DNA of 64,000 bases. It comes from Halomontanus rarus (GTDB taxonomy: Archaea > Halobacteriota > Halobacteria > Halobacteriales > Natrialbaceae). Under the pieces are notes generated by a model. It was given only the letters and a program-made list of their open reading frames with translations, had not been told where the DNA came from and did no database searches. The translations under genes and the position numbers were made by a program. The first letter of the stretch is position 1. Each line of letters starts with the position of its first letter. Location: NCBI RefSeq assembly GCF_017357405.1, contig NZ_CP071597.1:2914001-2978000 (forward strand). Direction: 5' to 3'. Shown one piece after another: positions 3,676 to 55,912 of the stretch.

Positions 3676-5340
3676 ATGGCTTCACGACGGGAACTCGAGC
3701 GCACCGCCGATACTCGGAGACCGCCGGGCGACCGACTCGAGGAACTCCTCGGCGATCGGGTACTCGCCCGCGACGATCACCTGAACGCGCCCGGCGTCGT
3801 CGTCCGACCGGACGAGGTGCGGGACGTTCTGCGGACGCTTCGCGACGACGCAGGCTTCGATCACTGCTCCTGCGTCACGGCCCAGGAGTACGGCGATCGG
3901 TTCGAGACGATCTACCACCTGAAGTCGTACGCGGATCCCACGCGGGAGGTCAGCGTCGTCGTCCCGACGGCTCGCGACGCGCCGGTCAGCGAAAGCGCCG
4001 AATCCGTGTACCGGACCGCCGACTGGCACGAGCGCGAGGCCTACGACCTCGTCGGTATCGAGTACGAGGGCCACCCCGACCTCCGACGGATCCTGCTCCC
4101 CGAGACCTGGCAGGGCCACCCCCTTTCGCGGTCGTACAATCGGGAGAAACCGCAGGTGGTCACGCTGGCCGAACACGCCAACCCGATCGCGGAGGATAGC
4201 CGTGACGCCGAGACGGACACGATGTTCCTCAACATCGGCCCCCACCATCCCTCGACGCACGGCGTCCTCCACGTGAAAGCGGTTCTGGACGGCGAGACCG
4301 TCGTCGACGCCGACCCCGACATCGGCTACATCCACCGCTGCGAGGAACAGATGTGCCAGCAGGGGACCTACCGCCATCAGATCATGCCCTTCCCCGACCG
4401 CTGGGACTGGGTCTCCTCCGGCCTCCTCAACGAGTGGGCCTACGCTCGAGCGGCCGAAGACCTCGCTGACCTCGCGGTCCCCGAGTACGCCCAGGTGATC
4501 CGGACGATGGGGGCGGAACTCTCGCGACTAGCCTCGCACTTCATCGCGCTGGGTACCTACGCGCTGGACGTCTTCGGCGAGTTCACCGCCGTCTTCCAGT
4601 ACGCGATGCGCGATCGCGAACTCGTCCTCGATATCCTCGAAGACCTGACCGGCCAGCGGATGATGTTCAATTACTTCCGACTCGGCGGCGTCTCGTGGGA
4701 CCTCCCCGAACCCCGCGAGGAGTTCTTCGAGACGACCCGCGATTTCCTCGACGACCTTCCCGCCAAGATCGACGAGTACCACGATCTGCTGGTCACCAAC
4801 GAGATCTTCCAGCTTCGCTGCGTCGATACCGGGATTCTGGAACCCGAGGTCGCCAAGGACTACGGCTGCACCGGGCCGGTCGCACGCGGCTCCGGGGTCG
4901 ACTACGACCTCCGACGGGACGACCCCTACGGTTACTACCCCGAACTCGAGTGGGACGTCGTCACCGAGGACGGTCGCGACAACTACGCGCGCGTGCTCGT
5001 CCGAATGCAGGAAGTCGAGCAGTCCGCGAAGATCGTCGAGCAGTGTCTCGACTTACTCGAGGACTGGCCCGCCGAAGACCGTGTGATCCAGTCGAACGTC
5101 CCGAGGACGCTCAAGCCCGACGCAGATACGGAGACCTACCGTGCCGTCGAGGGTGCGAAGGGCGAACTCGGGATCTACATTCGCGCGGACGGGACGGACA
5201 AACCCGGCCGATTCAAGATCCGCAGTCCGTGTTTCTCGAACCTCTCGGCGTTACCGGAGATCGTCCGCGGGGAATTCGTCCCCGACCTCGTTGCAGCGAT
5301 CGGCAGTCTCGACTGTATCATGGGCGAAGTCGATCGGTGA
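3676..5340 (+). CDS. nuoCD: NADH dehydrogenase-like complex subunit CD (NuoCD fusion)
   Basis: A 554-residue fusion of the NuoC (about 1-165) and NuoD (about 180-554) subunits of respiratory complex I. The NuoC part carries ETIYHLKSYADP and HEREAYDLVGIEYEGHPDLRRILLP. The NuoD part has FLNIGPHHPSTHGVLH, GYIHRCEEQMCQQGTYRH, the MGAELSRLASHFIALG helix and the canonical end GSLDCIMGEVDR. These peripheral-arm subunits form the quinone-site side of the complex. Start chosen at 3676, after the TATA box and where alignment with the family begins. No other nuo gene lies nearby, whereas haloarchaeal nuo genes normally form one operon, so this may be a second, isolated copy. Confidence 0.93.
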   Translation: MASRRELERTADTRRPPGDRLEELLGDRVLARDDHLNAPGVVVRPDEVRDVLRTLRDDAGFDHCSCVTAQEYGDRFETIYHLKSYADPTREVSVVVPTARDAPVSESAESVYRTADWHEREAYDLVGIEYEGHPDLRRILLPETWQGHPLSRSYNREKPQVVTLAEHANPIAEDSRDAETDTMFLNIGPHHPSTHGVLHVKAVLDGETVVDADPDIGYIHRCEEQMCQQGTYRHQIMPFPDRWDWVSSGLLNEWAYARAAEDLADLAVPEYAQVIRTMGAELSRLASHFIALGTYALDVFGEFTAVFQYAMRDRELVLDILEDLTGQRMMFNYFRLGGVSWDLPEPREEFFETTRDFLDDLPAKIDEYHDLLVTNEIFQLRCVDTGILEPEVAKDYGCTGPVARGSGVDYDLRRDDPYGYYPELEWDVVTEDGRDNYARVLVRMQEVEQSAKIVEQCLDLLEDWPAEDRVIQSNVPRTLKPDADTETYRAVEGAKGELGIYIRADGTDKPGRFKIRSPCFSNLSALPEIVRGEFVPDLVAAIGSLDCIMGEVDR

Positions 5341-18952: not shown

Positions 18953-19210
18953 ACTTTAGCGTATCACGGATAGTCGGATAATTCGACGGCTTGCACGTGG
19001 CGCGCTTGGCGCGTGCATCGTTACCAATCCGATATCGGTCTCTCCAGATCGTTCGAACCCTCCCCGGACCGTCCTATCGGTCAGCCCGCTGTCGGAATTA
19101 TCCGTGTGAATTCGACCGCCTTCGGCGTCGATGGCCGCGATATTCCGACCGGAGTCTCACCGGCCTCCGATCGACGGCACGCATCACGAGCTGTTGCACC
19201 TCCACTGACA

Positions 19211-19234
19211 CAGTACGTTTCGTCTGCTTTCGCG
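19211..19234 (-). repeat. ORB-like repeat, copy 1
   Basis: On the minus strand it reads CGCGAAAGCAGACGAAACG followed by TACTG. It matches the repeat consensus GAAAGCA(G/C)ACGAAnTGTACTCTC with an altered distal end. It is the leftmost of six copies around orc1. Confidence 0.55.
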
Positions 19235-19269
19235 TCCCGAACGCGACCAGCGCAATTGGAGAACAGTAG

Positions 19270-19301
19270 GAGAGTACAGTTCGTGTGCTCTCGCTCTCGA
19301 G
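19270..19301 (-). repeat. ORB-like repeat, copy 2
   Basis: On the minus strand it reads CTCGAGAGCGAGAGCACACG and then AACTGTACTCTC. It is nearly identical over 32 nt to copy 5 at 20953-20984, differing at one position in the core. Candidate Orc1/Cdc6 binding site. Confidence 0.65.
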
Positions 19302-19336
19302 TGTTCCGGTGTGGTGCCACGCGTGAGCGGATTCTG

Positions 19337-19382
19337 TGTTTCTCTCGTCCTGTTTCTCTCTCGTCCTGTTTCTCTCTCGCCC
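19337..19382 (+). repeat. Triplicated TGTTTCTCTCTCGTCC unit, possible unwinding element
   Basis: Three head-to-tail units of 14, 16 and 16 nt: TGTTTCTCTCGTCC, TGTTTCTCTCTCGTCC and TGTTTCTCTCTCGCCC. The tract is almost purely pyrimidine on the plus strand and lies between ORB-like copies 2 and 3, where an origin unwinding element would be expected. The repeat is observed; the function is inferred. Confidence 0.5.
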
Positions 19383-19400
19383 GGACGAAGCTGACGAGAG

Positions 19401-19425
19401 GGAGAGGGCATTTCGTGTGCTTGCG
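19401..19425 (-). repeat. ORB-like repeat, copy 3 (degenerate)
   Basis: On the minus strand it reads GCAAGCACACGAAATG followed by CCCTCTCC. It keeps the AGCACACGAAATG core and has drifted distally. Confidence 0.45.
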
Positions 19426-19516
19426 CCATCAGTCTTGATCGAATTCACCGGCAATAGCGGTATTGCTCACTGATCTTCCGTGATATGCTGAAGCATACGA
19501 AACTAACGAAGTCGGG

Positions 19517-19525
19517 TTTTAAATA
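19517..19525 (+). promoter_or_regulatory. TATA box of orc1/cdc6
   Basis: GTTTTAAATAC-type TATA element about 30 nt before the ATG at 19554. It predicts a very short leader or a leaderless transcript. Confidence 0.5.
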
Positions 19526-19553
19526 CCACTGGTGAGTAGTGATCGACAATACG

Positions 19554-20768
19554 ATGAGTGGACCTTTCAGTGATCTCACGGAGACGCTCTTTGCAGACAA
19601 GAGCGTCCTCAGCGAGAGTTATCACCCGGAAGAGATTCTCGAGCGGGATGAGGAGATCGAGGAGTACCGCTACGCGCTTCAGGACATCCTCTTCGGTCGA
19701 GATCCGGAGAACATCATGCTGTACGGGAAGGCTGGACTCGGGAAGACAGCCGTCACGAAATATATGACAGATGCGCTTCGCGAGGAAGTCGCATCTCGCG
19801 AGGAAGCGGACGATCTCTTCGTTCACGAGATCAACTGTAACGGCAAGACGCTTTTTATGGTCGTTCGTCGGCTCGTCAACGAACTGCTCCCGAAAGGAGC
19901 GAGTCGGTTTCCCAAACGCGGTCTCGGAACTGGTGACGCGTTCGACGAACTGTACCGACAGCTCGACCGACTGGGTGGCACTCACCTCATCGTCTTCGAC
20001 GAGCTCGATCATCTCGACGACGTCAACACGCTCCTCTACGAACTGCCTCGAGCACGCTCGAACGGCCACATCGAAACGTCTCGCATCGGCATCATCGGCA
20101 TCAGTAACAACTACACGTTTCGTAATTCTCTCTCGTCAAAAGTCAAAGATACGCTGATGGAGACCGAAATTTCGTTCAGTCCGTACGACGCAGGCGAGTT
20201 GCGGACGATCCTCTACGACCGAGCAGACAGAGCGTTCGTCGACGGCGCGTACGACAAATCGGCGATCACAATGGCCGCGGCGCTCTCCGCCCAGGACATG
20301 GGCAACGCCCGTCAGGCAATTGACCTCCTCCGTGTCGGTGCGGAGGTCGCAGAAAAAACGGGCGACGTACGTGTCGTCGACGATCACATCGAAAACGCGC
20401 GAACGCTCGTCCAGCGCGGACGACTCCGGAACCGGATCCGCGATCAAACACAACACGCCCAGTACATCCTGGAGACGGTCGCCCTCCTCGAAAACCGCGG
20501 ACAGACTCCCGTCCGATCGAAGACGATTCGAGCAAATTACGAGGGCGTTGCCACGTCCTGGGCGTCGGAACCGCTGACCACACTCAAGAGTATCCAGGAT
20601 CACCTTGCGGAACTCCACATGCTCGGATTTCTCCAGCGAACCGAGAAGAATCACGGTCTCAGCGGCGGACACTACTACGAGTACGAACTCGATCTCGAGC
20701 CCGAGGTCGTCCTCGAAACTCGCGAAACGATCGAGGGCGAAGAGCAGGCGGTACCCACTGACGATTGA
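19554..20768 (+). CDS. orc1: Orc1/Cdc6 replication initiator
   Basis: A 404-residue AAA+ initiator. Walker A is MLYGKAGLGKTAVTKYM (about residue 60), Walker B is THLIVFDELDHLDD, sensor 1 is IGIIGISNNYTF, and sensor 2 lies in MGNARQAIDLLRVGAEVAE. A C-terminal winged-helix domain of about 90 residues (from about 310) binds DNA. Orc1/Cdc6 recognises origin recognition boxes and loads MCM. Six copies of a specific repeat flank the gene, as is typical when an initiator sits at its own origin. Haloarchaea encode many Orc paralogues, each with its own box type. Start chosen at ATG 19554; a GTG 15 nt upstream is possible. Confidence 0.95.
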   Translation: MSGPFSDLTETLFADKSVLSESYHPEEILERDEEIEEYRYALQDILFGRDPENIMLYGKAGLGKTAVTKYMTDALREEVASREEADDLFVHEINCNGKTLFMVVRRLVNELLPKGASRFPKRGLGTGDAFDELYRQLDRLGGTHLIVFDELDHLDDVNTLLYELPRARSNGHIETSRIGIIGISNNYTFRNSLSSKVKDTLMETEISFSPYDAGELRTILYDRADRAFVDGAYDKSAITMAAALSAQDMGNARQAIDLLRVGAEVAEKTGDVRVVDDHIENARTLVQRGRLRNRIRDQTQHAQYILETVALLENRGQTPVRSKTIRANYEGVATSWASEPLTTLKSIQDHLAELHMLGFLQRTEKNHGLSGGHYYEYELDLEPEVVLETRETIEGEEQAVPTDD

Positions 20769-20850
20769 ACCGGCTCACACTTCCGATCGTACCGCGGTCG
20801 CGCCTTGACTTTCGACGGCTTCGACCGGTCTCGATCCGATTTCGCTCGAC

Positions 20851-20875
20851 GAAAGCAGACGAATTGTACTCTCTC
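20851..20875 (+). repeat. ORB-like repeat, copy 4
   Basis: Reads GAAAGCAGACGAATTGTACT followed by CTCTC, the full consensus on the plus strand, 80 nt after the orc1 stop. Confidence 0.65.
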
Positions 20876-20952
20876 ACTGCTCTCGAAAAGACGAGACGGG
20901 CGCATGTAACTCGTCCCTTCATCGCTCGGAGATGTCTACGGCCGAGACGGAA

Positions 20953-20984
20953 GAGAGTACATTTCGTGTGCTCTCGCTCTCGAG
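20953..20984 (-). repeat. ORB-like repeat, copy 5
   Basis: On the minus strand it reads CTCGAGAGCGAGAGCACACG and then AAATGTACTCTC. It is near-identical to copy 2 on the other side of orc1. Confidence 0.65.
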
Positions 20985-21040
20985 AACTGTACCTGTACGC
21001 TCGTCGAGCGGCCGGACACGACATCTCCCGTTCGAGTCCG

Positions 21041-21067
21041 TCTCGAAAGCAGACGAACTGTACTCAC
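21041..21067 (+). repeat. ORB-like repeat, copy 6
   Basis: Reads TCTCGAAAGCAGACGAACTG followed by TACTCAC, matching copy 4 at nearly all core positions. Confidence 0.65.
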
Positions 21068-21172
21068 ACTCTCGGTACGAGGAGGTGTGAGACGCTCTCG
21101 AGAGCGAAGTCACCGAACCGCTTCCCGACTCGAAGCGAACCTGAAGGTCGCTCGACGGCGTCCGTCACGCCG

Positions 21173-42014: not shown

Positions 42015-42086
42015 GGGCTCGTAGATCAGTGGTAGATCGCTTCCTTCGCAAGGAAGAGGCCCTGGGTTCAAATCCCAGCGAGTCCA
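42015..42086 (+). tRNA. tRNA-Ala (anticodon CGC)
   Basis: Full cloverleaf. Acceptor GGGCTCG pairs with CGAGTCC, and G17-T83 gives the G3:U70 wobble pair that identifies alanine tRNAs. D-arm GATC-AGTGGTA-GATC. Anticodon arm CTTCC-TTCGCAA-GGAAG, with CGC in the loop. T-arm CTGGG-TTCAAAT-CCCAG. The CCA end is not encoded beyond the discriminator A. It is a likely integration target: its 3' end recurs in degenerate form at about 55831-55861. Confidence 0.95.
42052..42086 (+). mobile_element. Putative att site at the 3' end of tRNA-Ala (left boundary of integrated element)
   Basis: The T-arm and acceptor end of tRNA-Ala form the usual haloarchaeal integrase target. A matching but degenerate copy lies about 13.8 kb away at 55831-55861, sharing GTTC(A/G)AA(T/C)CCC and CGAGTCCA. 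A tyrosine integrase (degenerate) lies inside the interval. The outer ends are inferred. Confidence 0.55.
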
Positions 42087-43912: not shown

Positions 43913-44429
43913 CGGTCCGGACCTGCTACTTCGGCGGACTCAACTCGAGTTTCGATCCTGCCGACGACGCCGACGTGTTCGGTGTCGTTCGCTATCCACA
44001 GGAGTTCGTCGAGCGACTGACCGACCGGAACATCCCGGCGGTCGCTCCACCCGAGGAGTTGTTGAACGCGTTCAAGGCCGTCGAAGAGCCGAGTACGCGA
44101 TCGAGAGTTACGCCGATCGGATTCAGCACCTCATGGGGTTGGCCGATCACGTTGCCGAGTCCTCGCCGTTTCAGAAATGGATCGCCGAGAACGGAGCCGA
44201 CCTCGAGTTCGACGATGGCGGGAATCCGAAGCGAATGCGTATCGATACGGTCCTGTCGCTGAAGAAAGCCGATAGCTTCGAGAACGCCCGCCGAGTCGCA
44301 CAGGAGGCGATCGACGCCTGGCGTCACTCCGGCAACGACGTCGTCCGGTTCAGCAAGACCACGATGGTCTGGCGGACACCTGGAAGCGGGAAAGACAGCC
44401 ACCGAGTCGGAGCGATCGCCGACTGGTAG
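43909..44429 (+). pseudogene. Frameshifted element-encoded gene
   Basis: The frame opens MTVRTCYFGGLNSSFDPADDADVFGVVRYPQEFVERLTD and runs normally to LLNAFKAVEE at about 44088. The correct continuation, EYAIESYADRIQHLMGLADHVAESSPFQKWIAENGADLEFDDGGNPKRM, is then found one frame over and ends at 44429. A single missing base at about 44089-44090 joins the two, for example EE(A)EYAIESYADR. The C-terminal half ends SKTTMVWRTPGSGKDSHRVG. Function not recognised. It overlaps the preceding gene by 4 nt, so both were once co-translated. Confidence 0.65.
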
Positions 44430-44458
44430 CGCTGCCCTCGTGAGTGGCAACGCTACCC
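44426..44458 (+). terminator. Hairpin downstream of the frameshifted gene
   Basis: GGTAGCG and CGCTACC (7 bp perfect), then an internal mismatch and GCC/GGC, with the loop CTCGTGAGT, followed by CCTTCATTTCATTTA, moderately T-rich. Plausible terminator for the rightward genes. It could equally be a structured RNA or a recombination site. Confidence 0.4.
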
Positions 44459-44546
44459 CTTCATTTCATTTAGACAACCGTACTTTCAGCCATAGCTGAT
44501 TTTCGCAAATACAGTTGTATTCGCTCACTCGAGGCGGGCGGCTCCG

Positions 44547-44622
44547 AGGCGATCGTGCCGATCGCCTGCGGGTCGGTTTCGCGCTGCGCGCGAAACGCCC
44601 CTTGCCGGGTGTCCCCAAGGGG
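44547..44622. repeat. Cluster of three hairpins followed by an A-tract
   Basis: AGGCGATCG-TGC-CGATCGCCT at 44547-44567 and GTTTCGCGC-TGC-GCGCGAAAC at 44576-44596 are perfect 9-bp inverted repeats, each with the same TGC loop. CCCCTT...AAGGGG spans 44598-44622. GCAAAAAAATTA follows at 44629-44640. No gene lies in this stretch (44460-44737). The pattern could be a replication or transfer site or a strong bidirectional terminator. Confidence 0.55.
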
Positions 44623-44649
44623 ACTGAGCAAAAAAATTACACCACCCCG

Positions 44650-44666
44650 CCCCGCCTCCGCACAGC
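44650..44666 (+). repeat. Direct repeat flanking the 44.65-45.77 kb module, left copy
   Basis: CCCCGCCTCCGCACAGC, matched 15 of 17 by CCCCGCTTCCGTACAGC at 45759-45775 in the same orientation. Both follow an AAATTA stretch. The two copies bracket about 1.1 kb that holds two genes. Confidence 0.4.
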
Positions 44667-44737
44667 AGATCTCCAGTTGAAGCACATGAAACGGGGGTGT
44701 TTGAAGTTTATCAGTGATGCCGAATCCAAACTGTTCT

Positions 44738-44938
44738 ATGCGACATCCTCAAGATGATCTGCTAATCGTTTACGCCCTCTCGAGGGTCGCTCAGGAGTAC
44801 AAAGACACACCCACTGAAGACCATGCATACGAACTAGCCGCCGAGATCGCAAACCAACATGGTCTCACTGCAGCTGAAGCAGTCAGACAGATGGAAGAAC
44901 GAGGCCAATCACATTGTTGGGACGAAGATTGTGATTGA
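44738..44938 (+). CDS. Hypothetical 66-aa protein
   Basis: MRHPQDDLLIVYALSRVAQEYKDTPTEDHAYELAAEIANQHGLTAAEAVRQMEERGQSHCWDEDCD. Two predicted helices with a helix-turn-helix-like segment (HAYELAAEIANQHGLTAAEAVRQM) end in a short Cys/Asp tail. An in-frame GTG at 44714 is an alternative start. It lies in low-GC DNA. Function not recognised; its size and helical content fit a small regulator or antitoxin, but nothing proves it. Confidence 0.5.
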   Translation: MRHPQDDLLIVYALSRVAQEYKDTPTEDHAYELAAEIANQHGLTAAEAVRQMEERGQSHCWDEDCD

Positions 44939-45019
44939 AGGCAGAATTCCAAACAAATTGTCTCACCCTTACACTATCGCTATAAGTGACATACGATAAT
45001 TAGAGGGACTAAATTTGTA

Positions 45020-45586
45020 TTACAAGAAATCATATGACAGCCAATAGGAGAACAATTCAATAACCACTAATATTACAATTAGAAAGATAATAATGCCGGT
45101 CAGTACCCCCTGCCAACCAGGGATCTCTAAACTAGCAACAAGTGCCTGAGTAGCTACTGCAAGAACCAAAAATAGTGTGTATCCACCTGTCTTCCGCGTT
45201 ACTTCCCTCTGCTGTTCTGCTACCTCTTCACGGTGACACCGTTCTTTCTCTCGTTGCTTTGCATCATGCTTGAACTGTTGTCGTCGGATTGAACGATCAT
45301 GAGCCACCTGCATTCCCATTTTTGTTAAGCTATAGGCGTATGCCTCTCCATTTTCACCTATACTTTCCATTTTGTTTATTAGTCCCACTGATTCCATTGA
45401 CTCCAGTGTTTGTTTTAGCTCATCTTCACCACTATGGCCTGTTTTTTGGAGAAGGTGCTGTAAATCATCATTCTCTGGATTAGTTGGAATCCTCAAAACA
45501 CCACCACCGTATTCAACAGAGTTAGCTATCTCGTCTAAGTCTTGATATAGGATGTCAACTAATTCAGTCCATCTCGGTTCTTCCAT
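45020..45586 (-). CDS. Winged-helix/coiled-coil/two-TM protein, AT-rich island
   Basis: A 188-residue protein. Residues 1-95 look like a winged helix (DELKQTLESMESVGLINKMESIGENGEAYAYSLTKMGMQVAHD). Residues 100-132 form a charged coiled-coil (RRQQFKHDAKQREKERCHREEVAEQQREV). Two membrane segments, about 136-153 (YTLFLVLAVATQALVAS) and 160-180 (GVLTGIIIFLIVILVVIELFS), end the protein. GC is far below the chromosome. A 6-bp palindrome lies over the start codon at 45585-45599. I do not recognise the family. The architecture suits a membrane-tethered sensor-regulator or an abortive-infection effector. Confidence 0.6.
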   Translation of the reverse strand: MEEPRWTELVDILYQDLDEIANSVEYGGGVLRIPTNPENDDLQHLLQKTGHSGEDELKQTLESMESVGLINKMESIGENGEAYAYSLTKMGMQVAHDRSIRRQQFKHDAKQREKERCHREEVAEQQREVTRKTGGYTLFLVLAVATQALVASLEIPGWQGVLTGIIIFLIVILVVIELFSYWLSYDFL

Positions 45587-45599
45587 GACAAAATGTCAT
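45585..45599. promoter_or_regulatory. Palindrome at the start codon of the HTH/TM gene
   Basis: ATGACA-AAA-TGTCAT is a perfect 6-bp inverted repeat overlapping the ATG on the minus strand. A winged-helix gene next to it suggests an autoregulatory operator. Observed repeat, inferred role. Confidence 0.45.
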
Positions 45600-45975
45600 A
45601 CGGTATCCCTATCAAACCTCCCGAAAGAAGGATCACCAATAGATCGAGACCAGGTCTATAACAATCATCGGACCATCAACAACATAATCTGATTCTTCAA
45701 TTTTCAAAGACCAGACCTCAAGAAGCTGTGGCTAAGGCCAAGTTCCCAAATTAACTGCCCCGCTTCCGTACAGCCGCCGCAGGCGCGCGAAAATTCATAG
45801 GAACTACGGGTTAGCGGTGGCTACATATTGTTGAGAATGGGGAGAGAGGACGATTCATTTACCACGAACAACAGGCTATGAATCAACTACAATTTCTCAC
45901 GATACCACACTCTTCAGAGCCCCGCCCTATATATACACGACACTATATATTTGACATCAGATCCTTACTCAGATA
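45587..45975. other. Intergenic region, AT-rich
   Basis: About 390 nt without a gene. It holds the direct-repeat copy at 45759-45775, a GCCGCCGCAGGCGCGCG GC-rich patch and TATA-like stretches (CTATATATACACGACACTATATAT at 45927-45950). The HTH/TM gene and the three-gene operon both point leftward, so this region should carry the promoter of the former and the terminator of the latter. Confidence 0.4.
45759..45775 (+). repeat. Direct repeat flanking the 44.65-45.77 kb module, right copy
   Basis: CCCCGCTTCCGTACAGC, the partner of 44650-44666 (two C/T differences). Together they may mark the edges of an inserted cassette. Confidence 0.4.
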
Positions 45976-46479
45976 TTAAAAAGCGTGGTTGAGAACTATG
46001 ATTGCAAGTAACGGTAGTACATTTGCAATAATAACACCAGCGTCACCATAATGCAAATAGAATTTATAACCTTTTATTTTCTTCACCCAACAATCAGAAA
46101 CCCAATATTTATTTGGTTGACGTGTCGTGAAATACCTGGAAGTACCTTCTCTTAATGCCAGAATGACTATTAAGATCGCTATTGCAGAAATCAGAATGGA
46201 ATCTTCCCCAGAATCTATTTGCGAAAGCTTTGCCAGAAATACTATAGTGACAGATAACAGGGACAATATATAATGTCTCATGCATTGTTGGAAATCAAAA
46301 CTCAAGGCAGCAGCAGTTTCTAAATCAGATGTGTGCGGCTCAAATGAAATCCCATCATCTTCAAACTTGTCAATCTGCCGAGCGAATTTTGAGGAGGGTC
46401 CTAAACTTAGAATTTGTACTACAATTGTTGCTATAAATGGTGTGATTTCAATTACCGTTTGAGATACAGACGCATTCAT
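45976..46479 (-). CDS. Four-TM membrane protein, third gene of the AT-rich operon
   Basis: A 167-residue protein with membrane segments near 8-26 (TVIEITPFIATIVVQILSL), 69-86 (HYILSLLSVTIVFLAKL), 94-109 (SILISAIAILIVILAL) and 146-164 (DAGVIIANVLPLLAIIVLN). A soluble stretch lies between segments 1 and 2, and a Lys-rich loop (WVKKIKGYKFYLHYG) comes before the last. The 4-nt ATGA overlap with the preceding gene indicates translational coupling. The topology resembles small membrane effectors of conflict systems, but I see no named family. Confidence 0.65.
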   Translation of the reverse strand: MNASVSQTVIEITPFIATIVVQILSLGPSSKFARQIDKFEDDGISFEPHTSDLETAAALSFDFQQCMRHYILSLLSVTIVFLAKLSQIDSGEDSILISAIAILIVILALREGTSRYFTTRQPNKYWVSDCWVKKIKGYKFYLHYGDAGVIIANVLPLLAIIVLNHAF

Positions 46480-46910
46480 CCAAGGTGGATTCTCGGGAAA
46501 ACACTTGGTCCTGTGATCTCCTGTGATGGGGTTCCATATTCATATGTAATTCTTGTTTCTAATGTCTCTTCAGACAATGTTTGGTTGCTACATTGGCTAA
46601 TATCAACATTAATTACAGCTGAGCTGGGACTTCCAATCTTTGCTGGAGGCATGGTAATAGATTCCTCACATGTGGTCACTCCGCTTGAGTTGTATTCGAC
46701 ACAGTTATTTTGACTGCCTAATTCAATTTCAGCGTCAATAGTGTGTCTTCTTTTTGAGCTTTTGATACATACTCTTTGGATGCCACTCTCATTTTCATTC
46801 AGTTTACATTGGTCTTCAGTATCTAAAACACCAGATTCTAAATCCAAATTTCTATCACTGTTAGAAACATCAAAACAAATGGATCCCTTGAGCTTTTTCT
46901 CAAATCCCAT
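46476..46910 (-). CDS. Hypothetical soluble protein, second gene of the AT-rich operon
   Basis: About 144 residues, starting MGFEKKLKGSICFDVSNSDRNLDLESGVLD, with many Ser/Thr/Asn and several Cys (CKLNENESGIQRVCIKSSKRRH, NNCVEYNSSGVTTCEES, SQCSNQ). No membrane segment. The ATG at 46910 is preceded by AGGA and was chosen over a TTG at 46994 that would overlap the upstream gene by 32 nt. It overlaps the next gene by 4 nt. Beta-rich predicted sequence. Function not recognised. Confidence 0.55.
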   Translation of the reverse strand: MGFEKKLKGSICFDVSNSDRNLDLESGVLDTEDQCKLNENESGIQRVCIKSSKRRHTIDAEIELGSQNNCVEYNSSGVTTCEESITMPPAKIGSPSSAVINVDISQCSNQTLSEETLETRITYEYGTPSQEITGPSVFPRIHLG

Positions 46911-46962
46911 TCCTATCTGGTCTGATAGAGCACAACATGTAATATATGTTGTGACTTTGGTT

Positions 46963-48054
46963 CTATGTGAGTGGTTTTTCGTAGGGTTGGTCAACAGTTT
47001 TTGTTATTTCATTTACTGTTTCTCTAACCGTATGGTCCCTCTCTGGTACTACGTCCCTTGACTCGAAATCATGATTTGGATTGAGCACTGGACTAAGATA
47101 TTGCGAAATAACGGAACGAATCTCAGTTGAGGATTTTTCTCCGGATTTGAATAATATAGTAATCTCATTTCCGTCAGCATGTGGATACGGGTCTTTCTCC
47201 CATGTCACTTCAAACGTACCCTCTGCACTTTCTACTGCAAGAAAGTCTATACAATGGTTCGATTTCACGGATTTAATTAGGTCAGGATATTCACCCATAT
47301 AGGAATACTCTTCTTCCTCATCTCTAACAACTACTTCACACCTTGATCCAGAAATCACACTAGGATCTTGTTGGAGATACTGGAGAAATGTTCTGACACC
47401 CATCTTTGTGAGCCAGTATATAGAATTACAATTGCCCTCATATTTCTCAATATTCACATCAATATCATTGGTTGAATTGAGATGTACACGCTTGAACCCT
47501 TCATCGTTAGAAAGAACGCCCTTCTCTATATTCCTAAATTCGATTACGGGCTCCTCTTCATCAGATGTGTCTGGAATGAGGAATTGTGAACGCGCGTCAG
47601 GATCAAAGAGTGAATCAAAATCTAAAGTGGATTCTGTGGCATACTCTGGATATTTACCATAAACATATCTGAGTAGATCACCAATCTTCTCCTCATTGTA
47701 TTTCGATTTTATTTTATTGATTTCCTCGAAAACTGTGTCGTATTGATCTTTATTAAGTAATCTCTTGGCCACTCGGATACCACTATTAGTTAAGGAGAAT
47801 ATGTGCTTTGGATTGCCAACTTCGTTATAGACCTCATGTTTACTTACTAGCCCTTTTTCAACAAACAAATTTATATCGCTCTCCAATTCGCGAGAATAAG
47901 GTCCGAACATATCCGCTTCATATTCGTATTTTTCACTAAGATGTGCCTCTTTTTGAGAGAGGAAAACTAATTTCTGAAACCTAGTTGCACCCTCAACACC
48001 TGATGAGCCATCTGTATACAGTAATACGATCGGTCTCAAACTGGTGATGTCCAT
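46963..48054 (-). CDS. Panacea/YwgA-like N-terminal protein, first gene of the AT-rich operon
   Basis: A 363-residue protein. Residues 1-135 resemble the YwgA/Panacea-type helical module: DITSLRPIVLLYTDGSSGVEGATRFQKLVFLSQKEAHL, YEYEADMFGPYSRELESDINLFVEKGLVSK, FSLTNSGIRVAKRLL and KSKYNEEKIGDLLRYVYGKYPEYA. Related modules serve as antitoxins or regulators in toxin-antitoxin and phage-defence loci. Residues 140-363 hold a second, unrecognised region that is acidic and beta-rich. Start ATG at 48054 follows a TATA box and GAGGT; GTG at 48081 is an alternative. GC content is strikingly low. Confidence 0.7.
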   Translation of the reverse strand: MDITSLRPIVLLYTDGSSGVEGATRFQKLVFLSQKEAHLSEKYEYEADMFGPYSRELESDINLFVEKGLVSKHEVYNEVGNPKHIFSLTNSGIRVAKRLLNKDQYDTVFEEINKIKSKYNEEKIGDLLRYVYGKYPEYATESTLDFDSLFDPDARSQFLIPDTSDEEEPVIEFRNIEKGVLSNDEGFKRVHLNSTNDIDVNIEKYEGNCNSIYWLTKMGVRTFLQYLQQDPSVISGSRCEVVVRDEEEEYSYMGEYPDLIKSVKSNHCIDFLAVESAEGTFEVTWEKDPYPHADGNEITILFKSGEKSSTEIRSVISQYLSPVLNPNHDFESRDVVPERDHTVRETVNEITKTVDQPYEKPLT

Positions 48055-48093
48055 GGTGCAAGCGACCTCTTGTGAGAGCACCTTTGTCCAACC

Positions 48094-48104
48094 ATATAAA
48101 AACT
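48094..48104 (-). promoter_or_regulatory. TATA box of the AT-rich three-gene operon
   Basis: On the minus strand TTTTTATATGG lies about 45 nt before the ATG at 48054, predicting a transcript start near 48070-48078 and a short leader. It is the strongest TATA match in the 380-nt gap 48055-48437, which otherwise holds the hairpin at 48228 and a rightward TATA-like TTTATAAC at about 48372 for the next gene. Confidence 0.5.
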
Positions 48105-48227
48105 TCCTGCTTGAGATTTCGTTAATAATATATTGTACCCATACTAAGGGTATTGGTTAGCCAAACTAAGAACCAGTTAATCCTTCTCAATAGCGATTTT
48201 CAGACTATATTATGAACTATTGGATCA

Positions 48228-48252
48228 GTGCAACCTCCCCTGGGGGTTGCAC
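48228..48252. terminator. Strong 25-nt hairpin, island boundary
   Basis: GTGCAACCTCCC and GGGGGTTGCAC form a nearly perfect inverted repeat of 11 pairs (one T-G wobble) with a tiny loop. It sits where low-GC DNA (to about 48220) gives way to high-GC DNA. Possible bidirectional terminator or remnant of an insertion boundary. Confidence 0.45.
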
Positions 48253-48437
48253 GTCTCGAGAATCGGTTTCTCGAATCTGAACACGAGCGCGAGTCGGCCG
48301 TGTTCATATTGCGGTCGTCGCGATGGGCATGGGCGGGACGATCGCCCCGATCGACACCCACCCGGACACCCCCTTTATAACTGAACACCAGTTGAGTAAC
48401 CGGAGAATTCTAGGATATCCGGCTCGTGTTCACGAAC

Positions 48438-48727
48438 ATGGCTCGCAACCAGACACCAGGGTCGGTTCGAATCCGAACCGACGAGGGAAACGAGTGGCGC
48501 TACGACGCGATCCAGAAGGCCGCGAACTTCTACGACTGTAATCGATCGAACGCCGTCGCGTTCGCCTGCGAAGACGTGACCAACTCGTTCACGCAGCTCG
48601 CCGCGTCCTCGAGCGCGAGGGCCTCACCCGGAAGCAACGTCGCGAGATCGCCGAGACCCTTTCGACTCGAGCCGTCACCTTCGACCTCGAGACGTCGCTC
48701 ACCGTAACGAGGAAAGGCGACGACTGA
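48438..48727 (+). pseudogene. DUF7692-like protein gene with one-base deletion
   Basis: Starts MARNQTPGSVRIRTDEGNEWRYDAIQKAANFYDCNRSNAVAFACEDVT, then switches frame. Restoring one base near 48580 gives QLVHAARRVLEREGLTRKQRREIAETLSTRAVTFDLETSLTVTRKGDD, ending with TGA at 48725-48727, which fits the full-length pattern of the haloarchaeal family I know as DUF7692. A rightward TATA-like TTTATAAC at about 48372 precedes it. Function unknown. Broken by frameshift, so probably inactive unless the lesion is a sequencing error. Confidence 0.7.
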
Positions 48728-48774
48728 GATCGGAAGTTAACACATATATCCGACAGCCGTGTTTCCTGCTTTAT

Positions 48775-49092
48775 ATGCAATTCTGTGACGAGTGTGGTTC
48801 GATGATGCACACGGAGGGCGACACGTGGGTGTGTCGCTCCTGTGAGAACGAGGAGTCGCGGGACTCGCAAGCAGAAGCGGCGATGACGATCCAGGATGGA
48901 CAGCGGGACGACGGGGCACCCGCCGTGGCCGACGCGACCCAGAGCACTACCGAGGCGATGCAGGAGCCCTGTCCGGCGGACGATTGCGACAGCGACCGGG
49001 CCGACTACGAGATGATGCCGAAGCCGGGCGGCTCCTACGAGGTTCGGCTGTTCACCTGCGTCGAGTGCGGCCACAAGTGGCGCGAGTCCTGA
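48775..49092 (+). CDS. TFS/Rpa12-like zinc-ribbon protein lacking the acidic DE hairpin
   Basis: A 105-residue protein related to transcription factor S. The N-terminal ribbon is CDEC-x14-CRSC, and the C-terminal ribbon is CPADDC-x24-CVEC followed by GHKWRES. In true TFS the hairpin before the last CxxC has an Asp-Glu pair that activates RNA cleavage in backtracked polymerase. Here MMPKPGGSYEVRLFTC occupies that place and no DE pair is present. It may therefore bind RNA polymerase without cleavage activity. A TATA-like CTTTATATG overlaps the start. Confidence 0.75.
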   Translation: MQFCDECGSMMHTEGDTWVCRSCENEESRDSQAEAAMTIQDGQRDDGAPAVADATQSTTEAMQEPCPADDCDSDRADYEMMPKPGGSYEVRLFTCVECGHKWRES

Positions 49093-49391
49093 CGGCGCAT
49101 CTCGCGAACCCCGCCGCTTAAATATGTACAGACCGCCACATCAGACTCTCAACTCCCGGGGTTACTCGGTCTCAAGTTATGAAAGGGGAAGGGAGGACGA
49201 TCAGGGTGGGTGGCTGATGATGATGTCGTGGTGATCGGATTACGACGCCTCCGCTTCCATTTGGGAAGTGAGGCTGTACACAGATATACTTGTTGTATAA
49301 TGACTTTCTGCCGAGTACTTCTCACAATCCAAAACGAAAGTCTCAGAAAATGCCCCTAATTGCTATTTTTGCTTGCTGTGTTCCACGGTGA
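49093..49391. other. Intergenic region without a gene
   Basis: About 300 nt between convergent genes. It has moderate-GC sequence with no supported ORF, no strong hairpin and no repeat that I can see. Confidence 0.4.
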
Positions 49392-50147
49392 TTACCACCC
49401 CCGTGCCATCGGAGCAGCGGGAGACTCGAGGTAGCTCCTCGTGGTGTTCATAGTGAGATTGGAGTAACCCGCTCCACTCTGGCTGTTAACCGGGTGAGTC
49501 TGCATCTTCATCTCACCCAGCGTCGTCCACTGTTCGAAAGGTCCAACGGCGTAGTGGTAATCCCAGTCGTCATTACCGTGCATCGTCACACCCAGCTGAG
49601 CCGTCTGGATCTCGTGACTCGAGCCGTTCACTAGCGAGACGTTGAGCGACGTCATTCCGACGTCGTAGAAGGTCGAATGGCTGGTCTCCGTATCAGGTGA
49701 GCCAGTAACACCGACGTGCAGGAAATTGTCATCGATTCCGCTTTTCTGGTTACTAACGTTGTGAGTGTACTCCGCTTGTCCCATCTGCTTCGAGAACGAC
49801 TCGAGCATCTGGATTTGCTGCCGAGCGTAGTAGTCCCGAATCGCCTCGCGTGCGTTCTGTGAGGCTTGAATCGTCGTGTTTCCGTTCTCCCACGACGTCG
49901 AGATTGCGTTTCGCGAGTCGATCGACATTCCGAGCACGAACGCGATCGTAATGTCGACGCCCTCCGCTGCCCAGGGAGCGTGATTCAGGTTGTAGTTCCA
50001 GGGCGCGAGCATCGCGATCTCGAATACCGAGGTCATCGCGAACGTACACGCGACGTACAGCGGTGCGAGCACGCTGTCCGTCAAGTCGATACCGTCCTCC
50101 CGCTTGACAGCGGAAGGGACCAGATTCGCAGGTAAATTCAGTGCCAT
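49392..50147 (-). CDS. Hypothetical membrane-associated protein, 251 aa
   Basis: [52 protein letters not shown] starts the protein, with one or two hydrophobic segments at about 28-48 and 62-78 ([14 protein letters not shown]). The rest is polar and Asn/Ser/Thr-rich, ending [33 protein letters not shown] at 50147 was chosen over the Met 6 codons upstream. The tail looks like a frayed end, so the gene may be truncated. I do not recognise a function. Confidence 0.55.
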
Positions 50148-50213
50148 GGGTATGTAACCAGGCATGACGTTCCGGAAGTGGACAATAAAGGAGACGAGAA
50201 CTTCGGTCGTTCA

Positions 50214-50795
50214 TCACCCTGTTCGAGGGTCAATATCTCTGAGAGTTTTATTTAGTGCAGTGAGCACATCGCTGTCTGATGGGCCGGTGCCCCAGTTATA
50301 CTGCTGTGTGGTGACCAGAGGGCCAGTATCCCAAGCGATCAGTAGTTGCGGCTCGGGATCACCCTCTGCGAATCCCTGCGGATCAAACGCCTCTTCGTAC
50401 GCATCACTCTGAACCCATGATAGCCACGTACTCTGTGCCTCCCCGCCAAGTAACGCGATTGCCCGCTTCTCTTCAAGCCACTCGACCGCTTTGGAGACTT
50501 CGATATCCGGAGTATCTTGTATCACGATTAGGTCCGCATCTCCCGGTACGTCTACTATCTGGACCGTATCCGGGATTGAAAGCTCAACATCCTCATCGAC
50601 ATAGACTGGACGTTGCTGGAGGTGTTCGTACTCTTCAGGAGTTTCCTCCTCTCCACTGAGTGCCGAACATCCGGCCAACGCTCCTGTGACTGCAGTCCCC
50701 GAAGTGGCGAGAACACCGCGACGCGTCAAATATTCGGTACTGTCACAGGTTTGCTCGACAGTCTGAAACTGCCAACACTGTTTCTTGGAGGGCAT
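50214..50795 (-). CDS. Tat-exported lipoprotein
   Basis: A 193-residue protein. The start at ATG 50795 gives MPSKKQCWQFQTVEQTCDSTEYLTRRGVLATSGTAVTGALAGCSALSG: a twin-arginine motif (TRRGVLAT) and a lipobox-like LAGC, so it is probably exported by Tat and lipid-anchored. The mature part is acidic with ALNKTLRDIDPRTG at the end and contains a Trp-rich QSTWLSWVQSDAY. Adjacent to a membrane-associated protein on the same strand. Function not recognised. Confidence 0.7.
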   Translation of the reverse strand: MPSKKQCWQFQTVEQTCDSTEYLTRRGVLATSGTAVTGALAGCSALSGEEETPEEYEHLQQRPVYVDEDVELSIPDTVQIVDVPGDADLIVIQDTPDIEVSKAVEWLEEKRAIALLGGEAQSTWLSWVQSDAYEEAFDPQGFAEGDPEPQLLIAWDTGPLVTTQQYNWGTGPSDSDVLTALNKTLRDIDPRTG

Positions 50796-50994
50796 AGTCG
50801 AATAGGTGAAAGGGGTTGGTGATGAAAATGTTGGTCTCTCCCCTATCTGTACTGAGCGATTCGTCAGACACAATCTGTAGTTGACTCTCGTGCAAGACTT
50901 ACGCCCTGTATTCAGCACGATTCTCAAAATTTCACTGGTATCTGATAGAAGTCACAGTGGTAAGTTCGCACACGTAGTTACCGAACCGCCCGAT

Positions 50995-51831
50995 TCAGTT
51001 ACTCGCGGTTCGCGACGCGCTCGGATTCGTACCGTGGCTGTATCCCCAGCGATCGGGCCGCCGCCGCCGAGACGTGACCATTCGATCGCCGACCGTCACC
51101 GGTTCCTTCGAGACGTCTTCGATGAGTGCGGTCAGCTCACGCCGGTAGGATTCCGGTCGGTCCTCCTGGACGGTGATCGTGTCCTTCGTCCGGTGATGGG
51201 TGCCGCGATTCGCGAGATACGCGAGCACGAACATCTCGCGGGTTTCGTAGGATGCGTCCTCGAGATACCACGGAAGCGTGAGGTCCTCGAGGTCGGCCTT
51301 CGGTCTGACCGGTGCGCCGAGTACGGCGAGTGTCAGACCGAGAAGTGACGCGTGTTCGGTCGGTCGAACCTCCGTTGCGCGCGAGTCGTCTTCGTGTTGA
51401 AAGTTGAACTCGAGGCCGACCATCTCGAGCGCGTCGATCACGCGCGATCGGTGCTGGCGGTGGTTCAGTGCGAACGACGATTGAAAGTGCTCTTCGGCGA
51501 TCGAGCCGCCGGAAAAGACGTTCGCGACGAGCGTGTTGAGGCCGACGAACGCTCGGTCCAGGTATCGTGCGTCGAGCCACCCGAGGTCGCGGGCGGTGTC
51601 GATCCCGCGGACGACGTCCGGTTTCGAACCGGACTCGAGTCACGGGCGGATGCGACCGCGTGGGATCTCGAGTGCGGTCGAGATCGCGCTCGAGCCCTTG
51701 TTTGGATGCTCGGATGCGTACCGCATGACCGCTTCGTAGTCCATAACCGCGGTGTAGGGGTCCTCGTAGGCGGGCGTGTTGTAGGTGCGCGCGAGGTCGC
51801 GCTCGTCGAGGACCACGACGTTGTCGGGCAT
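50995..51831 (-). pseudogene. Hypothetical gene interrupted by an in-frame TGA
   Basis: One frame of 279 codons from ATG 51831 to the stop at 50995. It begins MPDNVVVLDERDLARTYNTPAYEDPYTAVMDYEAVMRYASEHPNKG. Codon 64 is TGA (51640-51642), after GRIRP and before LESGSKPDVVRGIDTARDLGWLDARYLDRAFVGLNTLVANVFSGG. Related haloarchaeal proteins would be expected to have a Trp (TGG) at this position, so this is a one-base nonsense change. The rest, including ASLLGLTLAVLGAP and REMFVLAYLANRGTHHRTKDTITVQEDRPESYRRELTALIEDV, stays open. N-terminal HTH-like; function not recognised. Confidence 0.65.
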
Positions 51832-52189
51832 GATTCCGATGTGGGGTGTACAGGGGTAAGAATTGTGTCTCTTTCGTCGGTTGTTCTGAAACGCTCGATT
51901 TCAGGAGGTATGAACTATCCAAGGGGTGCTTGTAGGTTTTCTACGGGGGTTTGATTCTCAGAGTTGAAACCGTCTGTAAACAGGCCTAGAATTCAGGACT
52001 GCTTGAAGTTCTGTTTGGCAGTAACGTTTATGGTGTGCTGATTCCCGGTAGTGATTAGCGCCGAAAACGGTCTGAAGTGGGTGGTGGCACGAGGTTGGCG
52101 GGTTCATCCCCTTCGTGCCTGCTCGAGTGGTGTGCGCTACTCGAGATAAGCTTTGTGATCGTTTCTGCGGTGTGAATAAAAGGCCAGAT
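51832..52189. other. Upstream region of the pilin array
   Basis: About 360 nt with no gene I can support. The right end has a TATA-like GATAAGCTTTG near 52146-52156, about 40 nt before the first pilin ATG, and is the best promoter candidate for the three rightward pilin genes. Confidence 0.4.
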
Positions 52190-52597
52190 ATGAAAATCAC
52201 AAAGAAACTAATCGGTAACGAAGAAGAACGTGCAGTATCGCCCGTTATAGGGGTCATTTTGATGGTCGCTATAACCGTGATCCTCGCAGCTGTTATTGCA
52301 GCGTTTGTGCTGGATCTCGGTCAGAGTCAAAGTGCAAGTGCTGCTGCTGGTTTCCAATTTGATGAGGATGGAACTGATGTGGATGTAACAATGATTAGTG
52401 CAGACCGTCTTGATGAAGATACTGCTGGTAGCGGAGACTATCTAATTGAAGTCCACTGCGGCGGTGGCGGTGGACATAGCACTGGATCGACAATGAGTGT
52501 TGGAGCAACGGAGACTTGCTCCGGTAGTCCCTCTGAAATTGTCGTTGTTGGTGTCTATCAAGGAACGGAAACAACGGTCGCAACGTGGAGCGCCTGA
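52190..52597 (+). CDS. Type IV pilin-like protein 1
   Basis: A 135-residue protein with a class III signal, [38 protein letters not shown], where the prepilin peptidase would cut before the hydrophobic helix. The rest is a beta-rich pilin body with [11 protein letters not shown], a Gly-rich CGGGGGH segment and TTVATWSA at the end. It is exported and assembled on the cell surface. No pilus ATPase (PilB) or membrane (PilC) gene is nearby. First of three tandem paralogues. Confidence 0.88.
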
Positions 52598-52602
52598 TCA
52601 AA

Positions 52603-53019
52603 ATGAGTTTAAAATCAAAATTGGTTGGGAGTGAAGACGAGCGGGCAGTCTCCCCTGTTATTGGTGTCATTCTGATGGTTGCGATTACCGTAATTCTCGC
52701 AGCTGTTATTGCGGCATTCGTGCTGGATCTCGGACAGAGTCAAAGCGCGAGTGCAGCAGCGGGGGTGACATTTGAGGAGCATTCCGGAGGAGTCGATGTA
52801 ACACTCATTAGTGCTGATCGAGTTGATGAAACGGGCAGTTCCTTAGAGATTTCCACGACTGTTGAGCCCTCTGCTGGGGGTTGTAGCGGCAGTTTAGATC
52901 AGGTTGGAAAGACTGTCACTTGTGATGATGGGGCTACTCCAGCTGGTCAGCCAACCAGCATCAACGTTGTTGCAACGTACGAAGGAACTGAAACTACCGT
53001 CGCCACATGGAGTGCATAA
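52603..53019 (+). CDS. Type IV pilin-like protein 2
   Basis: A 138-residue paralogue with the same first 45 residues ([36 protein letters not shown]) and the same C-terminal [12 protein letters not shown], but a divergent middle ([31 protein letters not shown]). Starts 5 nt after the stop of copy 1, so it is co-transcribed. The conserved ends and variable middle suggest recombination or antigenic-type variation. Confidence 0.88.
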
Positions 53020-53021
53020 CA

Positions 53022-53423
53022 ATGGAGCTAAGGAAAAAATTAATCGGTAACGAGGAGGAACGTGCAGTTTCACCAGTTATAGGCGTCATTCTGATGGTCG
53101 CAATCACTGTGATCCTTGCGGCTGTGATCGCAGCATTCGTGCTTGATCTTGGACAGAGTCAAAGTGCGAGTGCAGCAGCTGGGGTGACATATGAGGAATC
53201 TGCTGGAACTTCCGGTGAAGTTAAAGTCACATGGATTTCAGCTGATCGAGTAGATGGTAGTTTGAATATTGTAGAAGGAAGTTGTACAGACACCTCTGGA
53301 GGTTCCAGTACAACTACTATAGGCAGTGTAGGAAACAGTGTCTACTGTGATAATACTCAAACAGTCACAATTACTGCGGAATATCAAGGTTCAACGACTA
53401 CAGTATCGACTTGGAGCCCATAA
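53022..53423 (+). CDS. Type IV pilin-like protein 3
   Basis: A 133-residue paralogue of the two upstream genes, sharing [38 protein letters not shown] and ending TTVSTWSP. Its middle region is different again ([33 protein letters not shown]). It starts 2 nt after the stop of copy 2. Lower GC than the chromosome. Confidence 0.88.
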
Positions 53424-53483
53424 CTAACGGCATAGTTATCCAGACCTAATTTTTGTTTTATTATTGGATGTCAGCCACATCTG

Positions 53484-53660
53484 TCATTCCTCGGTAGTAT
53501 TAAGGTCATCTGTTTCAAGATAGTTTTCTCCTACCTCAGTAATCGTATAGAACGGATTGCTCCCTTCTGCATCTTTCTCGAGAGCGCCTTCTTTCGCCAA
53601 TCGGTTACACTCTCGGCGGATGTATCCGTTGCTGTAGCTGGTGTTCTTGGCGATATTGTT
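53484..53660 (-). pseudogene. Winged-helix protein, truncated N-terminus
   Basis: The 58-residue end NNIAKNTSYSNGYIRRECNRLAKEGALEKDAEGSNPFYTITEVGENYLETDDLNTTEE is the C-terminal half of a haloarchaeal winged-helix domain (recognition helix NGYIRRECNRL). The first helices are missing, and the sequence upstream at about 53660 switches to an unrelated high-GC frame. It may once have regulated the adjacent element genes. Confidence 0.55.
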
Positions 53661-53661
53661 G

Positions 53662-53871
53662 GGTGACGCGGTGCTGTGCGAGACGGTCGCCGCCCTGGAC
53701 GACCTCGCCGCGCGGGTCGACGACCGTCCCACCGAGAGCGAGCCACGCGATCGATCCGGCCGGGCGATGCAGACCGATATCGCCGACCGCCTGTTCGACC
53801 GCGACGAAGCCGAAGACGACGGGATGGGCTATGGGCATGGGCGCGCGGAGAACTGGCGAGGTAAGAGATGA
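53662..53871 (+). pseudogene. Fragment of an element gene upstream of the integrase
   Basis: An acidic frame VAALDDLAARVDDRPTESEPRDRSGRAMQTDIADRLFDRDEAEDDGMGYGHGRAENWRGKR ends with TGA at 53869-53871, overlapping the integrase ATG at 53868. Its 5' part is missing, and the junction with the winged-helix fragment lies at about 53660. No start codon of its own is convincing. Confidence 0.45.
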
Positions 53872-54880: not shown

Positions 54881-55200
54881 CTTACAGGAATCGTGATTTC
54901 TAAAACTACCCGAATCAACCGGATTTCACCATCCCAGCGAGTCTATTCGCACTCTGCGCGTTCGGTAATCGCACCGAGTCGTTTGCTCTTTTTATAATTC
55001 CATCCCCGTTTGGGGAGTGTATTCGCTCCGTCGTTCGGCACGGATTACTGGTTGTGTTCGTGAGTTCTTCGAGCGATCCCGGCGAAACACTATCACGAAT
55101 TCTCACCCGGCCACTATCGTTATTGTGGTAATTGTTAACAACACTCGCAACATAGTAGGCTCTGCTCCCGATACGAGCCCATCAAGAGAAGACGACAATA
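54881..55200. other. Intergenic region right of the integrase
   Basis: About 320 nt, moderately AT-rich, without a supported gene. It includes CGTTATTGTGGTAATTGTTAAC at about 55120-55140, which resembles a promoter region for the SnoaL-like gene at 55201. Confidence 0.4.
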
Positions 55201-55632: not shown

Positions 55633-55830
55633 CGTGATCCGTGTCACCTATGGGACATCGCACCGGCTTTTCCCAGCCGGAGTGGGTCGAGGGCCGTCGT
55701 GATCGGCTGTCTCGATGACCACAATCAGACGGGACGAATACCGGATGTGGGTCCGAGCAGTGGTGTCGCTCGGCTTTCAGTCCGCGGCCCCGCCGAGGCG
55801 CATCCCTTTCGGGTGCCGTTCCGAGGCGGT

Positions 55831-55861
55831 AGGGACCCGAGTTCGAACCCCGACGAGTCCA
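55831..55861 (+). mobile_element. Degenerate copy of the tRNA-Ala 3' end (right att-like boundary)
   Basis: GACCCGAGTTCGAACCCCGA then CGAGTCCA resembles the T-arm and acceptor end of the tRNA at 42052-42086, sharing the GTTC(A/G)AA core and CGAGTCCA. It sits 13.8 kb downstream on the same strand. It does not fold into a full tRNA here. Likely attR of the element, partly decayed. Confidence 0.45.
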
Positions 55862-55912
55862 CGACTGAACGAACGAAGCGACGTGAAGGAGTGGACTCGC
55901 CGAACATCGCAA

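Follow-up and report, generated by a model that had tools for sequence, protein, structure and literature searches.

A class of ORB-like boxes lacking the G-string flanks an orc1/cdc6 gene in Halomontanus rarus, most likely an Orc-specific origin, active or dormant

In the window analyzed here, i.e. the whole stretch of 64,000 nucleotides from Halomontanus rarus, a gap of 2,220 nt between a gene of 75 codons linked to uvrA and a usp gene is filled by an intact orc1/cdc6 gene and six ORB-like boxes, as judged from the open reading frames of the window and Pfam; the 75-amino-acid product itself has no Pfam match. The features are as follows.

18953..21172, no strand: whole cassette, the gap between the uvrA-linked gene and the usp gene, with orc and all six boxes
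19209..19231, minus strand: box 1, 3 mismatches to the consensus
19270..19292, minus strand: box 2, 1 mismatch
19402..19424, minus strand: box 3, 3 mismatches; 152 nt before the ATG, near a position kept in many relatives
19425..19553, no strand: AT-richer leader, candidate unwinding region and orc promoter
19493..19510, plus strand: tandem pair of half-sites, 9 nt apart, without tails
19517..19525, plus strand: TTTTAAATA, by its sequence the probable TATA box of orc
19554..20768, plus strand: orc1/cdc6 gene, 404 amino acids, with AAA+ ATPase, initiator-specific motif (ISM), lid and C-terminal winged helix
20851..20873, plus strand: box 4, exact match to the consensus
20953..20975, minus strand: box 5, 1 mismatch; opposite to the prevailing outward direction
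21045..21067, plus strand: box 6, 1 mismatch

Elsewhere in the window, the GC content at positions 44001-56000, taken in 4-kb steps, is 0.44-0.56, compared to 0.62 for the window as a whole; a tRNA-Ala gene lies at 42015-42086, and the region could represent an integrated element.

When the window was searched with the box consensus, six matches with up to 3 mismatches were found, all within 18953..21172, against a shuffle expectation of 0.00; none of 100 dinucleotide shuffles of the window reached six. In the whole genome (5,166,602 bases, 2 contigs), the same threshold recovered the same six boxes and no others, and a reversed control pattern had 0 matches. The six copies, their strands and the arrangement of three on each side of the gene are as described in the initial annotation, with starts displaced by 0 to 4 nt. 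The consensus given there is exact in one copy (20851) and deviates by 1 position in three copies and by 3 positions in two, and copies 2 and 5, described as identical over 32 nt, agree at 31 of the 32 (97%). Each box consists of an ORB-like half-site, which in our reading resembles the core of G-string ORBs (e.g. TAACAGCGGAAACAGTGGGG in PMC3528665), followed by GTACTCTC at the position of the haloarchaeal ORB G-string. Between boxes 2 and 3, at 19334-19381, there are three head-to-tail copies of a 16-nt unit of the CTGTTTCTCTCTCGTC type, unlike the boxes.

The 404-residue Orc exceeds the Pfam cut-offs for AAA_22/AAA_16, Cdc6_lid and Cdc6_C, and thus has the length above 300 amino acids and the AAA+ and winged-helix domains by which orc/cdc6 genes are recognized in PMC3528665. 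The solved structures that it matches, ORC1 of A. pernix (2v1u, E = 1.6e-49) and Orc1-1/Orc1-3 of S. solfataricus (2qby, E = 5.9e-44), have the same order of AAA+, ISM and winged helix but are distant in sequence; the comparison covered the proteins. Here, the ISM denotes approximately residues 94-139, with limits set by us. The Orc query had ten matches in its own genome, the next best at 34% identity; two of the ten (L012 and L015) are halves of one gene with an insertion, which leaves about nine orc-like genes. In the 1,500-nt flanks of the seven other orc loci (the L012 gene being left out), repeats with a G-rich tail were found at four, and no repeat was judged box-like at L013, L014 and L016. 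Hence the statement that the box differs from the G-tract ORB holds within this genome: the G-string, seen at four of seven other orc loci, is absent from the six boxes. The Orc in L012 (457-2379; C1 about 2351142-2353064) is the closest in look to general archaeal Orc1 and carries, where the ISM loop would be, a long insertion that is acidic and of low complexity.

The boxes accompany one Orc lineage. Among 125 genomes of the family, own genome included, with Orc taken from the best 14 candidates or fewer per genome, 18 have an Orc at E of 1e-100 or better, 16 of these at 74% identity or more, and in all 16 boxes are present on both sides of orc. By our count, 74 of the 111 box matches in the family are at these 16 loci; the other 37 are in 17 genomes that lack a close Orc and at second sites, and the reversed control pattern had 0 matches in all 125 genomes. 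In a wider search of genome contigs, the best 80 of 180 confirmed Orc relatives were kept, spanning Natronoglomus, Haloterrigena, Natrinema, Haloferax, Halorubrum, Halobellus, Halococcus, Halobacterium, Haloarcula and others. Among these 80, at least two boxes with the CTCTC tail were found at 36 of the 38 loci with identity of 62% or more, the exceptions being L145 (one box) and L152 (none), both partial gene matches; at least one match with a G-rich tail is nearby at 12 of the same 38 loci, several with another half-site. The specific Orc-box pairing that had been suggested is therefore borne out across genera. Viruses were considered as a source and rejected: no Orc relative was confirmed in viral contigs and there was no match in phages, and the one exact box among viral contigs, inside an ORF of 155 amino acids with no Orc visible in the 6,276 bases examined, is attributed to chance.

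Occurrence of the repeat away from orc, which the initial annotation had named as grounds for abandoning the origin, is not seen in the own genome and is partly seen elsewhere: at least one box occurs in 17 of the 109 family genomes that lack a close Orc, in some beside remnants of this orc and in others with no Orc nearby. In L043 (5040-5409) and L046 (5506-5832), the boxes are accompanied by no more than a C-terminal fragment of Orc, covering about residues 286-394 and present in L043 as two overlapping pieces; in G086, G089 and G091 boxes are present and the best Orc is 34-35% identical. We take these stray boxes to be leftovers of lost cassettes. In L044 and L049, at about 4990-5190, a pair of inverted boxes spaced 160 nt apart encloses tandem half-sites, and orc is absent; living orc-free origins were considered for this locus, near-identical by eye in two genomes, and rejected in favor of leftovers, the best Orc of these genomes being 34-35% identical. 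In L039 (3192-5023), CTCTC boxes are interleaved with repeats of another Orc (TACACTCGGTATGAGGTGTG type) beside an Orc that is only 32% identical, perhaps two merged cassettes.

Given such remnants, i.e. partial Orcs or only distant ones beside boxes, the locus in the window might itself be the decaying remnant of a plasmid-type origin, out of use, a reading to which the 3 mismatches in each of two window boxes and the eight plasmid records carrying relatives of 55-60% identity also lend weight. We consider it improbable: the gene in the window is open, full length and has all domains, and the other genome of the same genus has an Orc of 96% identity at the same place, together with six boxes, of which one has 5 mismatches.

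Flanking genes indicate how the locus may have come to its place. The uvrA context is shared by one of the 15 other close-orthologue loci, that of the same genus only. A search with the 75-amino-acid protein covered 41 genomes, with 30 loci kept; outside the genus, three of these 30 adjoin uvrA, and none has an orc within the 1.5 kb examined. In one of these genomes, G020 (locus L220), on which the case for an empty site rests, a usp gene of 49% identity lies on the opposite side of the 75-amino-acid gene, at a distance of 154 nt. Because the flanking genes thus adjoin without orc in one other genus, the initiator and its boxes are probably a portable cassette.

The layout of the boxes was compared in 30 loci, i.e. 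the window and 29 of the 38 loci with identity of 62% or more (L089, L098, L099, L105, L116, L138, L140, L145 and L152 were excluded, L116 as more distant and the others as broken or partial). Upstream of the gene there are 74 boxes on the minus strand and 2 on the plus strand, and downstream 75 on the plus strand and 7 on the minus strand, so that the tails point away from the gene in 74 of 76 and 75 of 82 boxes, respectively; box 5 of the window is among the exceptions. In 19 of the 30 loci, the upstream box closest to the gene begins 144-154 nt ahead of the ATG. Among 17 relatives whose boxes carry a G-string, outward orientation prevails by 44 to 0 upstream and 36 to 1 downstream. In the window, the upstream boxes all have one direction and no inverted pair flanks the leader itself; the inverted boxes span the leader together with the gene, not the leader alone. 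PMC3528665 looks for inverted repeats around an AT-rich region. In six relatives of 57-60% identity, the boxes are confined to the upstream side, 18 on the minus strand and 6 on the plus strand, and form a compact inverted arrangement.

These six relatives are what would be expected if the upstream boxes made up the origin and the downstream boxes only titrated Orc, in which case the outward layout would be uninformative on an origin that spans the gene. The available text of PMC3936714 describes a downstream ORB cluster at oriC2 of Haloarcula hispanica with a negative, probably titrating role. This reading, which differs from the one we prefer only in the role of the downstream boxes, is a serious possibility that we rate somewhat below an even chance; titration alone needs no orientation, and the downstream boxes are oriented as strongly as the upstream ones.

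The leader that separates the upstream boxes from the gene has a GC content, in 60-nt steps, of 0.48 (19440) and 0.40 (19500), compared to 0.62 for the window, and the GC content of the leader is below that of its own locus in 55 of 55 loci (mean 0.43 vs. 0.60). The leaders carry the half-site as a tandem pair with a 9-nt spacing and no tails, immediately ahead of the probable TATA box. With up to 2 mismatches, such tandem half-sites were found in 43 of 53 leaders compared to 0.1 expected from dinucleotide shuffles, with up to 3 in 49 of 53 (0.4 expected) and with up to 4 in 52 of 53 (2.4 expected), the half-site pattern itself being derived from these same leaders. At 4 mismatches, there are none on the other strand in 55 leaders and 7 in 2,061 windows farther upstream. 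The reversed half-site pattern matched 25 of 55 leaders and is a weak control, as it keeps the period and the A-richness, and dinucleotide shuffles were used instead. Some of the G-string relatives, e.g. L126, appear by eye to have a longer half-site array. The placement of the half-sites suggests autoregulation, unwinding or both.

Tandem half-sites directly before the probable orc TATA box in nearly all leaders examined are also compatible with boxes that serve as operators, with Orc being mainly an autoregulated transcription regulator, perhaps a non-initiator like Sulfolobus Orc1-2, and no replication start at the locus; according to the available text of PMC9738581, Orc1-2 shares these domains and acts as a regulator, not as an initiator. 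Unlike what would be expected of a regulator of many genes, no other box exists in the genome at 3 mismatches: where an Orc1-2-type regulator has its motif at many promoters, all six genome matches to the full box motif lie at this one locus. Three of the boxes are downstream of the gene, and the cassette recurs in different contexts and, in relatives of 55-60% identity, on the eight plasmid records. Operators without an origin are an explanation to which we give little credence.

To relate the tail of the box to the protein, 76 Orcs were placed in a quick IQ-TREE tree with SH-aLRT support only. Seventeen Orcs (57-59% identical) form a clade (97) nested in a clade of 57 rows (99), and their sister group (93) consists of five Halocatena-type Orcs whose tails, TACTGTG or TACTGTC, were counted as CTCTC-like. 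In these cassettes of the 17 Orcs (Halorubrum, Halobellus, Halohasta, Haloquadratum and Natronocalculus), the half-site ACAGACGAAAyG, the outward layout and the tandem half-sites at the promoter are the same, whereas the tail is AGGGGTG instead of GTACTCTC and the ISM loop is typically FPETGLSTxHALET as opposed to FPKRGLSTxDAxEE. The G-string class was assigned to 15 of the 17; L122 has a single box and L124 both tail types, and L128 and L132, in the G-string class, have one or two CTCTC boxes in the vicinity as well.

Residues specific to the G-string clade were ranked with groups defined by clade, keeping L111, L112, L124 (mixed), L122 and L141 (no box found). The top residues are D128, replaced by H, and K121, replaced by E. 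The segment 94-139 accounts for 4 of the 10 highest-ranked residues, 5 of the first 15 and 6 of the first 20, a modest enrichment (5 vs. 1.7 expected in the top 15, P = 0.019; P = 0.018-0.019 throughout, uncorrected), and three control clades showed no excess of specific residues in 94-139. At position 122, all 38 rows classed CTCTC have R or K and all 22 classed G-string have T; two of the four distant G-string Orcs of the own genome have K or R there. What argues against the ISM as the sole reader of the tail is that three residues of the winged helix (295, 374 and 376) likewise change in the G-string clade. In a mutual-information list for tail class over all labelled rows, not corrected for kinship, position 355 in the winged helix is at the top and 10 of the top 20 are within 94-139. 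As there are only 2 to 3 independent tail contrasts on the tree, significance is out of reach. A corresponding link between winged helix and half-site was tried and no claim is made: in one clade with a different half-site, 7 of the top 10 residues are in the winged helix (P = 0.008), and in its counterpart 1 of 10.

According to the available text of PMC9738581, the ISM contacts the G-tract in the A. pernix complex, and residues G127 and L128 in the ISM of Orc1-2 are needed for specific binding; we place these at G123-L124 here by the GL motif, without alignment to Orc1-2. The same source has the ISM off origin DNA in the S. solfataricus heterodimer, which counts against reading of the tail by the ISM. 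With these points on both sides, we put forward, tentatively and as somewhat less than probable, that origin specificity in haloarchaea is a two-part code, whereby the winged helix would read the half-site and the ISM loop (about 116-133) a separate tail, and the lineage of this portable cassette would have swapped GTACTCTC and G-string by a few ISM changes; the G-string would then be one of several tail dialects separating co-resident origins, not a requirement that high salt imposes in general.

The boxes, their association with one Orc lineage, the outward polarity, the tail difference of the sister clade with its ISM changes, the tandem half-sites and the one empty site are computed results. 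Judging from the sequence, the locus is most likely an origin specific to its Orc, whether active or dormant, that belongs to an ORB class without G-string. That the gap is a self-contained initiator-origin cassette, whose Orc reads half-site and tail, opens the leader and limits its own synthesis, seems to us fairly probable. Orc would bind the boxes with its winged helix on the half-site and the ISM of the AAA+ domain on the GTACTCTC tail; bound Orc would open the AT-richer leader and bring in MCM; and Orc on the tandem half-sites at its own promoter would limit its own synthesis. The downstream boxes would serve either as the right arm of an origin spanning the gene or as an Orc sink of the type proposed for Haloarcula hispanica oriC2. 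The origin may be dormant in the wild type. GC skew had been proposed as a check of the origin; sampled skew gave no signal, the cumulative range over 40 stretches of 20 kb from contig C1 being no larger than in shuffled order (p = 0.47), a result that speaks neither for nor against an origin.

Two further sources of information on activity were set aside. Plasmid pHME132 of Hfx. mediterranei carries a relative of 55% identity and related boxes, but it also has a second AAA-ATPase gene near a ParA gene, and the available parts of PMC4595724 and PMC9769981 contain no mapped origin on it; it is thus no proof of activity. Halobacterium orc1 to orc10 were considered as studied homologues; none of the 20 inner knockout primers given in the available text of PMC1906834 was found in L113, so that the NRC-1 knockouts are irrelevant to this Orc lineage.

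Among known systems, the closest are the origins adjacent to haloarchaeal orc/cdc6 genes. In the available text of PMC3528665, these likewise have, for each family, Orc-specific repeats in the gaps adjoining the gene, which at several origins flank orc on both sides, and the cassettes have spread among replicons. The six boxes correspond to the ORB-like repeats in intergenic regions beside orc that this study describes, but only G-string repeats were accepted there (102 of 154 orc genes), and the boxes here end in GTACTCTC. Haloarcula hispanica oriC2-cdc6E with oriC2D likewise has boxes upstream and downstream of the initiator gene (PMC3936714); oriC2D differs in having eleven downstream ORBs compared to three, and in having been tested for function. 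In the same organism, the available text reports, the G-string is essential at oriC1 and the downstream ORBs of cdc6E act negatively. Thus, the kind of initiator-box cassette is already known, and the box class, the tail difference between sister clades and the promoter half-sites appear to be new. A literature search combining GTACTCTC with haloarchaea returned no origin paper by title, the figure logos and additional files of PMC3528665 being outside its reach. Other papers drawn on, in the parts available, are PMC12141716 and PMC5350488.

Two published predictions of haloarchaeal origins selected repeats by the G-string (PMC3528665; PMC4595724, in the text available), and G-string-free origins would therefore be passed over. 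For discrimination between initiators and origins, the review PMC4010727 draws, in its available text, on a pair of crystal structures and on subsequent binding studies. Sister Orc clades that share a half-site but differ in tail provide a natural experiment on how an Orc recognizes its own origin among about nine orc-like genes, and the cassette is a candidate independent origin for haloarchaeal vectors.
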